DNA from: Candidatus Terasakiella magnetica
GTDB taxonomy: Bacteria > Pseudomonadota > Alphaproteobacteria > Rhodospirillales > Terasakiellaceae
Assembly (NCBI RefSeq): GCF_900093605.1
Contig: NZ_FLYE01000047.1
Coordinates: forward strand, 62,001-126,000
DNA length: 64,000 nt
Direction of reading: 5' to 3'
Shown here: piece by piece, positions 9,835-15,533 of the stretch
How the letters are laid out: every line of letters starts with the position of its first letter
Position numbering within the stretch: position 1 is the stretch's first letter
Made by a program: the position numbers and the translations under genes
The notes under the pieces: generated by a model
What the model was told of the DNA's origin: nothing
Databases searched by the model: none
Seen by the model: only the letters and a program-made list of their open reading frames with translations

Positions 9835-10224
9835 TTATAGCTTAACCCGAATGGGAATCTCTTCAAAGTCCTGATTTGTTTCATTAAAGCGGAAAGCTTT
9901 GATTTCTTTACAGGTGGTGATGACCCAGAGCAGTTCGGGCTCATAAACCATGGAACGATCTGTTTTTGATGGAAAAGGATTTCCATTGGGGTGAGAGTGA
10001 TAAAACCCCATCAGGCTGCGCTCCCCGCTTTCACGGATCAGCTCAAAACGCACTTTTGGGTCAAGCTCAAAACTTTTTGTCTTATCGCCTGTGCTGATGT
10101 TGGCGGATGGCATGAGCCGCTCAACAGTTTCCCCATCCCCCACAATCAGGCCACAACATTCTTCAGGATGGGCCTGTTTTGTGAAGTCTAATAATCGATC
10201 AAAATCAGCTTGTGAGAGGATCAT
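9835..10224 (-). CDS. JAMM/MPN-type metalloprotease-like protein
   Basis: A 129-residue single-domain protein of the Mov34/MPN/PAD-1 (JAMM) family. The zinc and catalytic set is intact: glutamates in PEECCGLIVG (21/22), then H76-S-H78-P and, after the proper spacing, S86 and D89 (HSHP...SKTD). Bacterial relatives cut small ubiquitin-like sulfur carriers or release C-terminal cysteine in cysteine or thiamine pathways. No such partner is in this window, so the substrate is unknown. The start overlaps the stop of the upstream membrane-protein gene by four bases (ATGA), implying co-translation. Confidence 0.85.
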   Translation of the reverse strand: MILSQADFDRLLDFTKQAHPEECCGLIVGDGETVERLMPSANISTGDKTKSFELDPKVRFELIRESGERSLMGFYHSHPNGNPFPSKTDRSMVYEPELLWVITTCKEIKAFRFNETNQDFEEIPIRVKL

Positions 10225-10649
10225 TGAGCAGGGTGTAAGGACAATCCACCAAGTTTTGCACCCGTATTGATATCAAGAACCATCAAACGGTTAATACCTA
10301 CCTCATTGATGAGGCGCAGCACAAGGCGTTGAGAATCTATATCGGTTTCCACCACTTTATAGCCTGTTGGGATCTCAATGCGCATATCGCCAAAAGCACG
10401 CACTGGGGCCACAACGCTTACAGGGGCCGCTGTTGGGGCAACTGTTTCAGCTTCACTTTTCTTGCCAACAAGCGGGACTTCAATGTCTTTTAGCGCTTTT
10501 TCAAGCTCAGGTGCTTCTGTTGCCAGATCAAAAAATTTAAAATCAGGGTTGTCTGCCTTCTGCATTAGGCCGTAAACCAGAGCAATCATGCCAAGGATGA
10601 TTAAAACTCCCATGCCGACAACGGCTGAAACCAGTACTGTTCTTCCCAT
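10221..10649 (-). CDS. Single-pass membrane protein, DUF6476-like
   Basis: A 142-residue protein with one N-terminal transmembrane helix (about residues 5-28), a Pro/Ala/Val linker (about 60-85) and a C-terminal beta-rich part that ends RLMVLDINTGAKLGGLSL. It resembles the small membrane proteins (DUF6476) found next to rluD in many alphaproteobacteria, and here it also lies divergently beside rluD with 24 bp between starts. The C-terminal domain would be periplasmic if the helix is a signal anchor. Function unknown. It is the first gene of a unit with the JAMM gene, and probably ltaE. Confidence 0.6.
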   Translation of the reverse strand: MGRTVLVSAVVGMGVLIILGMIALVYGLMQKADNPDFKFFDLATEAPELEKALKDIEVPLVGKKSEAETVAPTAAPVSVVAPVRAFGDMRIEIPTGYKVVETDIDSQRLVLRLINEVGINRLMVLDINTGAKLGGLSLHPAQ

Positions 10650-12746: not shown

Positions 12747-13286
12747 CTAGCCCCTCGGGGCTTTGGGTTCTGCGGCTGGTGCACCGGGTTCTTTGGCCTC
12801 ACCGGGCTCGCCAACCACCTCTTCTTTAGTGACCGCATCACCCCATTCGCCAAGTAGTTTCTTTTGGCTTGCGCGCAAGACAGAAACACGTCGCTGGGCA
12901 ATAAAGGTCATGACGGTGGTAACAATGGGGGGTGTGACAATAAATAAAATCCAGCCAAGACCCGCTGAGCCATACATCAAAAAGAGAGAGAACACATCGG
13001 TAAGGGTATCAATGGCAACAGACATACTGTTGCTTCCCATCCATAAATCCAGCAGATAAGGGAAAATACCGGCAAAGTTCATGGCTAAAACACTGATGAA
13101 TGCAAAGCGTTGTGGGGAGCGGTCAATCAGAACGGCGACAAATGTTGGCAACATACCAAAACAGACAAGCACCAGTGATGCCATGGAAACCAGCATCAAG
13201 ATAACAGCTGCAAACAGTGCCATCATGCCAAGCAGCATGAGGCCACCGCCTTGTTGCTTCTTCACCGTCATTTTTGCTTTTGCCAT
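12747..13286 (-). CDS. Multi-pass membrane protein of unknown function
   Basis: A 179-residue protein with about three to four hydrophobic segments (near 16-45, 62-82 and 95-127). Its cytosolic-looking tail is rich in Glu, Pro and Ala and ends APAAEPKAPRG. I do not recognise the family. It starts 12 bp after the stop of the tail-anchored pseudokinase gene, in the same direction, with GGGGAAAC as ribosome-binding site, so the two are almost certainly one operon. The products probably meet at the inner membrane. No catalytic motif is visible. Confidence 0.7.
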   Translation of the reverse strand: MAKAKMTVKKQQGGGLMLLGMMALFAAVILMLVSMASLVLVCFGMLPTFVAVLIDRSPQRFAFISVLAMNFAGIFPYLLDLWMGSNSMSVAIDTLTDVFSLFLMYGSAGLGWILFIVTPPIVTTVMTFIAQRRVSVLRASQKKLLGEWGDAVTKEEVVGEPGEAKEPGAPAAEPKAPRG

Positions 13287-13298
13287 TATAGTTTCCCC

Positions 13299-15365
13299 TT
13301 ACCAAAGCCGACCGATGAAGGTCACGGTGATGATTAACAGGGAGATGACAATGGATGTCATAGCAGCAGCTTGTTGCCCCATGCGATTTGAGTTTTTCTG
13401 CAGGGATTTCTCGTTATTCTGAATGTCTTTTATTTCGTTTTCAGCTTCTTCAAATTCACTGCAAGCTTCATCGAACTCTATCTGATCTTGCGCGCGCTGT
13501 TCTGCATTATCAAGCAGGTTGAACAGGTCAGCAAGGTTACCTTTGCGAATAAGTTTTGGGACTTCTTTTTCAAGCTCTTCACGAATGGATTTACTGTGAT
13601 AGGCTTTGATCGCGGGGCCCATATGGGCACCCACCCAACTGGTAAAGCCCATCATGGTGCCCGCTTTGGTGCGCCATTGCACAAGGGCAAGCAGGCTGAG
13701 CATGCCTAATGTCGCAATCTCTTCACGATCATCGCCAACGGCTTTGACATGAGGGTCAATATTTTGGTTTAGCCGTGCTGCAATGAAAGCGACAATATGG
13801 CGATCAATCGGTTTTTTCTTTTTATCGACCTTGGCTGAAATGCGCTCAAGCGCGGGCATGAGGTCTTTAATGGTTGTGACATATTCCTCAACCAACAAGG
13901 GGCTCTGACAGGCCATGGTCGGGTTGGTTTCATAAAGGACGCGCTCAACCCCATAACCGATTTTGCGTTCTTGAACAAAATCAAGAAGCTGGTCAAAGTT
14001 CTTTTCAAGGGCCACATAGACCGGGTTATAGGTATCTTGAGCATCAAACCAAGCGCGTGGCAGGCCACGGGTGATCAATTCAATCGGTGAGTTTGCATTA
14101 CCTTTATGTAAGATGGAATGGGCAAGCATTGTCCCAAAGCCATCAGGCATACACCAGCAATCCTTGTAGCGGATCGGTAAGGTCGGATCGAGCACAATCC
14201 CGATACGGGCTGCCAGCACATCTTTATCACCAGATTGTGATTGTGCCATATGAATGGCGTTTGAGGCCGCAGCGGAGAGATCAGAATCTTCCAAGTCGCG
14301 CTTGAGCCACGTTTCCAACATGTCATCTTTGACAAGCTTGTCAACTTGGCTGGGCATACGTGTTGCGGCAAGGGAAAGCGTGCGGGTGTTGAAATGTTCA
14401 CGCCCGGCATAATCAATATAGCGTTTGGCTTTGCGTGCAGACTTTTTCTGGATGGGGGTTAAACGCCGACCATTGATCCAGAGATCAAGCTGTTCAAGGC
14501 TCCAGCGTTCATGTTCATCATCAGAGAGAAGGCCGCGCAGACATTCCACCATATTTGGGGGTATGACTTCTTGACCAATCAGTGTGGTATAGGAGCCTTC
14601 GATCATCTTTGAATAAAGGATATCATCATCGGTGCGCAATTGCGGCACAGGGTTGCCCCCGGCAATGGCAAAGATGACAGACACCCCAAAGGCGTACATA
14701 TCATCGGCAACGTCGCCAGCCCCACGCCCGGCAGGCGGGGCAGCGCCACGTTCTAACGTTTCAAAAAGAATGGGTTGGTCATATCCCGGTGGTACGGTTG
14801 TACAATCACCAAGGACCAAACGGTCAAGGGAGCCATCAAGGAAAAAGAGGTTGGAGGGGCGAATTTGTCGATGCGAAACACCGCGCGAAGACAGTTCCAT
14901 TAAGCCATGGCATAAGGGCTCGATGATTTTTCGCACCATTTCATGTTGAGAGATTTGACCCAGATGGTCAAGCAGGCGTCCACCTGTCGGGCGTTCATAA
15001 ATCACAACAACGGTACGCTGGCTGATTAAGGGCCAGTGAACGGTGCCCCATTCCACAAGGTTCATGGATCCGCGAATATTCGCGCCTTTTAAAACATCCA
15101 TAACACCAGTACGGGCCCCAAGGAAGGGCGGGCAAACAAGGGCGAAGAGTTTGCGCTCGGTATTACGTTTGTCTTCAGCTACATAGGCTTTGGCTGATGG
15201 GGTGCAAAGTTCAGGGATCGGCATGGCGGGGTTAATGTTATAGCGATCCAGCACAACAGGAGGCACGGGTTTACCCTTTGCCTTTGGTGGCTCAGCTTTT
15301 GGCTGAGCTGCAGCTTGATCGGCTTGAGCCTGATCTTGTGCATTTTGGTTTTCCTGTTCGGCCAT
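13299..15365 (-). CDS. Tail-anchored protein kinase-like protein, probable pseudokinase
   Basis: A 688-residue protein. Residues 1-35 are a low-complexity Gln/Ala/Pro/Lys stretch. Residues about 40-300 follow a Ser/Thr kinase fold: VVVIYERPTGGRLLDHL resembles the hinge, SHRQIRPSNLFF the catalytic loop, LVLGDCTT the DFG strand and DDMYAFGVSVIFAI the helix after the activation segment. The catalytic Asp of HRD is Gln167 and the DFG phenylalanine is Cys, and I see no clear glycine-rich loop or VAIK lysine, so phosphotransfer looks unlikely. A helical middle (300-610) leads to a charged coiled coil (about 615-660) and one C-terminal transmembrane helix (about 668-688). Its partner membrane-protein gene lies 12 bp downstream. 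Function unknown. Confidence 0.75.
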   Translation of the reverse strand: MAEQENQNAQDQAQADQAAAQPKAEPPKAKGKPVPPVVLDRYNINPAMPIPELCTPSAKAYVAEDKRNTERKLFALVCPPFLGARTGVMDVLKGANIRGSMNLVEWGTVHWPLISQRTVVVIYERPTGGRLLDHLGQISQHEMVRKIIEPLCHGLMELSSRGVSHRQIRPSNLFFLDGSLDRLVLGDCTTVPPGYDQPILFETLERGAAPPAGRGAGDVADDMYAFGVSVIFAIAGGNPVPQLRTDDDILYSKMIEGSYTTLIGQEVIPPNMVECLRGLLSDDEHERWSLEQLDLWINGRRLTPIQKKSARKAKRYIDYAGREHFNTRTLSLAATRMPSQVDKLVKDDMLETWLKRDLEDSDLSAAASNAIHMAQSQSGDKDVLAARIGIVLDPTLPIRYKDCWCMPDGFGTMLAHSILHKGNANSPIELITRGLPRAWFDAQDTYNPVYVALEKNFDQLLDFVQERKIGYGVERVLYETNPTMACQSPLLVEEYVTTIKDLMPALERISAKVDKKKKPIDRHIVAFIAARLNQNIDPHVKAVGDDREEIATLGMLSLLALVQWRTKAGTMMGFTSWVGAHMGPAIKAYHSKSIREELEKEVPKLIRKGNLADLFNLLDNAEQRAQDQIEFDEACSEFEEAENEIKDIQNNEKSLQKNSNRMGQQAAAMTSIVISLLIITVTFIGRLW

Positions 15366-15500: not shown

Positions 15501-15533
15501 AAAAAGCTCCAGATTTATCATCCAGAGCTTTTT
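15501..15533 (-). terminator. Intrinsic terminator of hisZ-purA
   Basis: AAAAAGCTC (15501-15509) pairs with GAGCTTTTT (15525-15533); on the minus strand the hairpin ends in a T-run. It lies 28 bp past the purA stop. Confidence 0.75.

Follow-up and report, generated by a model that had tools for sequence, protein, structure and literature searches.

The 64,000-nucleotide stretch of Candidatus Terasakiella magnetica DNA analysed in this study (the window) carries on its minus strand two adjacent open reading frames, one for a putative C-terminally anchored pseudokinase of 688 amino acids (herein KIN; 13299..15365) and the other for a multi-pass membrane partner of 179 amino acids (MP; 12747..13286), separated by an intergenic gap of 12 bp (13287..13298); both frames and their spacing had been read correctly in the initial annotation. 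The gene order is purA, KIN and MP, with rpoH convergent with MP (the names purA and rpoH are presumed from their sequences). A terminator-like hairpin with a 14-pair stem and a T-rich tail lies in the interval between purA and KIN (15501..15533, minus strand), weakly suggesting that KIN and MP form a transcription unit of their own; the scanned region holds 7 terminator-like sites against 4.0 (sd 2.6) in shuffled sequences, a weak excess. Elsewhere in the window, positions 9835-10649 encode a small protein, presumably Mov34/JAB-like, and a protein of 142 residues that has a single hydrophobic segment, found near rluD in many relatives.

The kinase resemblance noticed at first sight was borne out by structural modelling. 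The AlphaFold2 model of KIN (mean pLDDT 89, pTM 0.81) predicts a bilobal kinase fold, which comparison with kinases by Foldseek (E 1.1e-8) and VIA-align places at residues 33-300 (14466..15269, minus strand). The best solved match in VIA-align was WNK3 (5o21_A; Z 25.9, rmsd 2.2 over 252 residues, KIN 32-299), but a close kinship to WNK is not proposed, because the identity is 16%, even though WNK stands at the top of the fold list. By sequence, the Pfam Pkinase match of KIN reaches 29.2 bits, short of the curated cut-off of 31.7, and at E 0.1 PF00069 matches 33 of the 37 aligned KIN members.

Residues at the active site were counted over 130 aligned rows from the order- and class-level sets, taking the rows with a residue at the site; fragments and second copies are included, as is the window protein. 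The site of the beta3 lysine, located by alignment to kinases with ILK or VIK, is Ala75 in KIN (15141..15143, minus strand), and the rows there carry Ala (120), Cys (3), Gly (3), Val (2), Thr (1) or Ser (1), with neither Lys nor Arg in any of the 130. No glycine-rich loop is visible in KIN, so that the absence of this loop and of the VAIK lysine, as first reported, holds, and so does the replacement of HRD by Ser164-His-Arg-Gln167. Within the catalytic loop (His165-Asn172; 14850..14873, minus strand), the HRD aspartate site corresponds to Gln167 and is occupied by Asp in a single row (L190, which reads HGD), His165 is present in 122 of 130 rows with Gly never at that site, and the metal-binding Asn172 is kept in 127 of 130. 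The DFG site consists of Asp187-Cys188-Thr189 (14799..14807, minus strand): the segment HRDIKPGNLFFADQAHQRIMLGDFGIS of L272, a relative with intact motifs, aligns without gaps with HRQIRPSNLFFLDGSLDRLVLGDCTTV of KIN, setting LGDFG against LGDC; the DFG aspartate is therefore Asp187, and Gly186 lies just before the motif. The earlier reading of 'GDC instead of DFG' was accordingly off by one residue. Site 187 holds Asp in 69 rows, Glu in 54, Gln in 4 and Pro in 3, and is thus acidic in 123 of 130, while the F-helix Asp222 is found in 129.

Among the residues of an active Hanks-type kinase, the window KIN lacks the beta3 lysine and the HRD aspartate and has the metal-binding Asn and the DFG aspartate, namely Asn172 and Asp187. 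With regard to active-site residues elsewhere in the fold, which the initial annotation had named as the finding that would speak against it, the metal ligands were indeed present, in their usual places, and the lysine and the base are absent from theirs. As judged from these residues, KIN is a pseudokinase that has lost the lysine, the base and the glycine loop and kept the metal ligands; the definition in the available part of the 2025 review of bacterial pseudokinases (PMC12599244), i.e., the loss of any of the beta3 Lys, the HRD Asp and the DFG Asp, would also include it, since both the beta3 Lys and the HRD Asp are gone. The retention of the metal ligands without lysine or base makes the purpose of the retained kinase pocket a testable question. 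One candidate answer is that KIN is an atypical enzyme, in which the metal site would be employed for different chemistry, for instance nucleotide transfer or hydrolysis. The conservation of Asn172 and of an acidic residue 187, both present in 120 of 129 rows, together with Arg169, kept in 118 of 130, agrees with such chemistry, and SelO and SidJ illustrate in the available text of PMC12599244 that folds of this type can gain other activities; however, SelO and SidJ have a lysine at the beta3 site in Table 1 of that text, whereas all 130 KIN rows lack it, as KIN lacks the glycine-rich loop, and residue 167 is free to vary (12 different residues across the rows), unlike a catalytic residue. We regard an atypical enzyme as unlikely, albeit the foremost of the alternatives considered herein.

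The kinase-fold domain is followed by a helical domain (residues 301-620; 13506..14465, minus strand), delimited by predicted secondary structure and by entropy per segment and mainly helical in the model, and then by one continuous predicted helix (residues 621-687), of which the first part is a long helix (residues 621-663; 13377..13505, minus strand) and the hydrophobic end a membrane anchor (about residues 664-686; 13308..13376, minus strand). A hydrophobic 19-mer lies within the last 45 residues of all 42 full-length KIN relatives, with 0-6 residues beyond the best window, in agreement with the single C-terminal membrane helix originally assigned to KIN. The best conserved part of the protein is the segment 470-620, with a mean entropy of 1.44 bits, the kinase lobes averaging 1.67 and 1.80 (37 sequences). 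For residues 305-620, no sequence match was found in PDB up to E 1 and no Pfam family in more than one of 19 members, and hhalign of four stretches gave no sign of repeats within the helical domain (probabilities at most 0.9%). At class level the helical domain is present in 67 of 190 genomes, and the frames that carry it are of KIN size (658-802 residues) except for three of 401, 529 and 565 residues.

The model of MP is helical (mean pLDDT 86), and the window protein has four hydrophobic windows, against two to five among 43 relatives; its description as a multi-pass protein is thereby upheld. The acidic tail ascribed to MP turned out not to be a family-wide feature, the net charge of 43 MP tails ranging from -20 to +4 and being negative in 33. 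Invariant across 36 members are Met1, Pro47, Asn70, Gly73, Gly111, Pro119, Gln141, Trp148 and Gly149, of which the last five belong to the long last helix, defined from the alignment and the model (residues 98-153; 12828..12995, minus strand). MP would span the membrane with four helices and have both ends in the cytoplasm. Neither Pfam, in which no family matched more than one of 36 members, nor NCBIfam, in which none matched more than three of 36, placed the protein in a known family, and no PDB fold matched the model better than E 1.6.

KIN relatives, full or partial, were identified in 49 of the 60 genomes searched, the own genome included, after subtraction from 51 of two genomes with weak generic-kinase matches (G035 and G051; E 4.3e-4, residues 142-240), and such a spread is not a matter of chance. 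The KIN profile matches 138 of 385 genomes at class level, seven of these matches being weak (E 2.7e-7 to 5.8e-4) and probably generic kinases; most genomes carry one copy. Among the matches listed for a sample of 299 genomes from the phylum, none outside the class was full-length, and the best partial ones gave 8e-21 to 4e-19. The closest KIN in named records are those of T. brassicae (85%), a MAG labelled Methylocystaceae (82%) and T. pusilla (81%), and the named carriers include Thalassospira, Telmatospirillum, Roseospira, Magnetovibrio and Caenispirillum. KIN also occurs in five Azospirillum plasmid records; in both of the two inspected MP is next to it, and in one of the two purA and rpoH, so named in the record, lie beside the pair. 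Two Azospirillum KIN are annotated as serine/threonine protein kinase, with a neighbouring 'hypothetical protein' that matches the MP profile. The family is hence widespread, mostly single-copy and constantly partnered, and is present in the culturable genera Azospirillum and Thalassospira. A second, divergent KIN of 27% identity, without MP, was noted in genome G023 (L064, 5926-7953, plus strand), where the following frames resemble by eye pieces of transposase. On a plasmid of Rhizobium sp. 11515TR (L270), an open frame of about 1800 residues shows a weak match to the KIN profile (69 bits), and the stretch contains no match to the MP profile.

The survey of gene neighbourhoods, suggested in the initial annotation as a check of conserved pairing, bore it out: MP, as recognised by its profile, comes directly after KIN on its strand in 119 of 125 copies, contrary to the case of homologues that never occur beside the membrane gene. 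The count is made up of 43 of 44 copies at order level and 76 of 81 at class level, the latter possibly flattering the weakest members, because the 80 class-level stretches fetched were fewer than the matches and came mostly from the stronger ones; at least 500 bases after KIN were required, by which five copies near contig ends were omitted. Among the six copies without MP (L064, L216, L243, L250, L253 and L255), each of L064, L253 and L255 is a second copy, the other copy of its genome being accompanied by MP. The named set shares members with the order set; there MP stands beside KIN in 78 of 79 cases, the exception being L138. The pairing is also seen away from the locus described above: of the 122 stretches in total, 35 show no purA within the neighbourhood fetched, yet MP adjoins KIN in 29 of them, and likewise in 19 of the 25 that show neither purA nor rpoH. 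In three loci (L198, L199 and L236), the order KIN-MP-KIN-MP was found, with one MP per KIN; KIN and MP have been duplicated there as a unit. Across the 60 genomes, 48 have both genes, 11 neither, one KIN only and none MP only (Fisher p 3.5e-11, relatedness being ignored), and in the KIN-only genome (G028) KIN runs off the contig end.

Over 82 loci, the distances of KIN and MP correlate with r 0.70, and with a partial r of 0.60 after removal of the purA distance, against 0.25 for the highest of 1000 permutations. Among the top 100 KIN-MP pairs by mutual information (152 rows), a weak test from which relatedness was not removed, the long helix accounts for 15 against 6.6 expected, the helical domain for 66 against 49 and the anchor for 2 against 3.2; the signal leans towards the long helix and the helical domain and away from the kinase lobes, but not towards the anchor, and is not decisive. 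Within the genus, dN is 0.08-0.15 for KIN and 0.13-0.26 for MP, with dS at least 1.5 or saturated.

Comparison with known systems was made with the PF00069 superfamily as a whole, with relatives outside the class and with described pseudokinase families. KIN (33-300) shares the predicted fold of the superfamily and differs by the absence of the beta3 lysine, the HRD aspartate and the glycine-rich loop. Three proteins from another class of the same phylum (L271, 2660-5296, minus strand; L272, 1024-3330, plus strand; L273, 3003-4988, plus strand) match the KIN profile over the kinase domain and the beginning of the helical tail (E 4e-22 to 4e-23), the alignment reaching model position 440 in L271 and 395 in L272. 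Unlike KIN, they have an intact ILK/VIK lysine, HRD and DFG and score 125-137 bits with Pkinase, against 29.2 for KIN, and no MP-profile match was found among the frames of at least 80 residues in their fetched stretches; they may be active cousins of KIN. In L271, TERFD-like motifs are repeated near the N terminus.

Bacterial pseudokinases are largely unexplored by experiment according to the review PMC12599244, as far as its available text goes, and the following comparisons are with families as described in that text. KIN has degraded motifs in common with the GLW, ActPs2 and ActPs3 families, but keeps the metal-site residues and has its own helical domain and a constant membrane partner. 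In the GLW family, GLW replaces HRD and Leu or Trp stands at beta3, whereas KIN has His165 and Ala75; ActPs2 has Arg at beta3 and mostly a deletion in the DFG motif, in contrast to Ala75 and Asp187 of KIN; and in ActPs1 and ActPs3 all three catalytic residues are replaced, in contrast to the kept Asp187. The DLHK pseudokinases keep the HRD aspartate and are without a membrane segment, and KIN differs in both respects; the DYD pseudokinases carry at beta3 the Arg that is absent from every KIN row; the CP1 pseudokinases, fused to COG3899, have no membrane segment, unlike the anchored KIN relatives, and the Pfam scan of KIN revealed no ATPase domain; the SelO-like AMPylators have the beta3 lysine (Table 1) where KIN has Ala75. 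Also comparable is EssB/YukC, reported as a pseudokinase that is likewise anchored in the membrane and acts as a scaffold of a membrane complex. It is reported from type VII secretion of Firmicutes, whereas KIN is alphaproteobacterial and ends 0-6 residues after the anchor window; with few of its neighbours named, a link of KIN to secretion may exist. KIN departs in a defining feature from each of the seven families compared by their descriptions, although it may match one of the 42 families of the underlying atlas, and no family in the available text is described as keeping the metal ligands and losing lysine and base as a rule, although single CP1 members may do so. Among the papers listed from the literature on bacterial pseudokinases, bSTK families and Hanks-type kinases of the host group, mostly outside subscription papers, no description of KIN-MP was found. 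We class KIN as a new family of a known kind, the membrane-anchored bacterial pseudokinases, with unusual kept residues, a helical domain and a constant partner.

With respect to function, we consider it probable, with some reserve, that KIN and MP, conserved jointly across Rhodospirillales and other alphaproteobacteria, are subunits of one inner-membrane complex that serves as a non-catalytic platform. This reading is inferred from the predicted fold, the residue losses, the pairing, the tandem duplicates, the co-occurrence, the correlated distances, the anchor, the low dN and the near restriction of the helical domain to KIN-sized frames. In such a complex, the cytoplasmic pseudokinase and its own helical domain would act as the platform, the long helix and the anchor of KIN would pack on MP, and the last helix of MP would extend into the cytoplasm. 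Should the metal site bind any ligand, it may stabilise or switch the platform without phosphate transfer. The retained metal ligands leave room for chemical activity and count against a pure platform, and the six copies without MP and the weak mutual-information result also speak against the proposed reading. The initial suggestion of a membrane signalling or scaffold pair is hence supported by a predicted kinase fold, the family-wide loss of lysine and aspartate and the conserved pairing, the role itself being proposed on these grounds. The adjacency of the two genes in many alphaproteobacteria suggests an unstudied, probably non-catalytic membrane complex.

A more specific and doubtful idea is that KIN-MP is a nucleotide- or metal-sensing switch which opens or assembles the multi-pass MP; if this is true, a pseudokinase-gated membrane device would date far back in Alphaproteobacteria, with its genes often next to purA. 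Rather improbable is a regulated transporter or channel, in which MP would be the carrier of a substrate or ion, with KIN as the gating or assembly factor, in the manner of EssB in type VII secretion. The invariant Pro47, Asn70 and Pro119 in or near the MP helices and the assembly role of EssB/YukC as a membrane pseudokinase (PMC12599244, available text) are in line with it, but MP matches no transporter in the Pfam, NCBIfam and PDB-fold searches described above, and the KIN neighbours away from purA, clustered by size and position and mostly not named, form no dominant shared cluster. It is very unlikely that KIN activates or inhibits by allostery an active Hanks-type kinase of its own cell, a role that pseudokinases are known to play according to the available text of PMC12599244 and for which the own genome, with three other Pkinase matches, would provide partners: 19 of the 49 KIN genomes are without any PF00069 match besides KIN at E 0.001 (11 without any match and 8 with KIN copies only; for 12 of the 19, the listed completeness is 90% or more), which argues against a helper role, although the search misses KIN itself in many genomes and could miss other divergent kinases too. 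A decaying or chance neighbourhood without joint function, to which the window KIN lends itself by falling below the curated Pkinase cut-off, is next to impossible in view of the pairing across 125 copies, the joint loss and the low dN.

A flagellar link was considered and rejected: FliG_C is found in 51 of the 60 genomes but is absent from five KIN genomes (G011, G018, G027, G028 and G031), and therefore flagella do not follow the KIN pattern. As the helper role is argued against and the flagella do not match, the non-catalytic membrane platform is favoured. MreB is present in all 60 genomes and hence uninformative. A defence system was also rejected, PADLOC giving partial matches only, which fall mainly in the kinase region and reach at most 31.1 bits. 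In the genome of the window, a further frame (L259, 1339-3048, minus strand) appears by eye to join a PP2C-like phosphatase part to a kinase whose motifs are intact, together with a hydrophobic segment at the C terminus.
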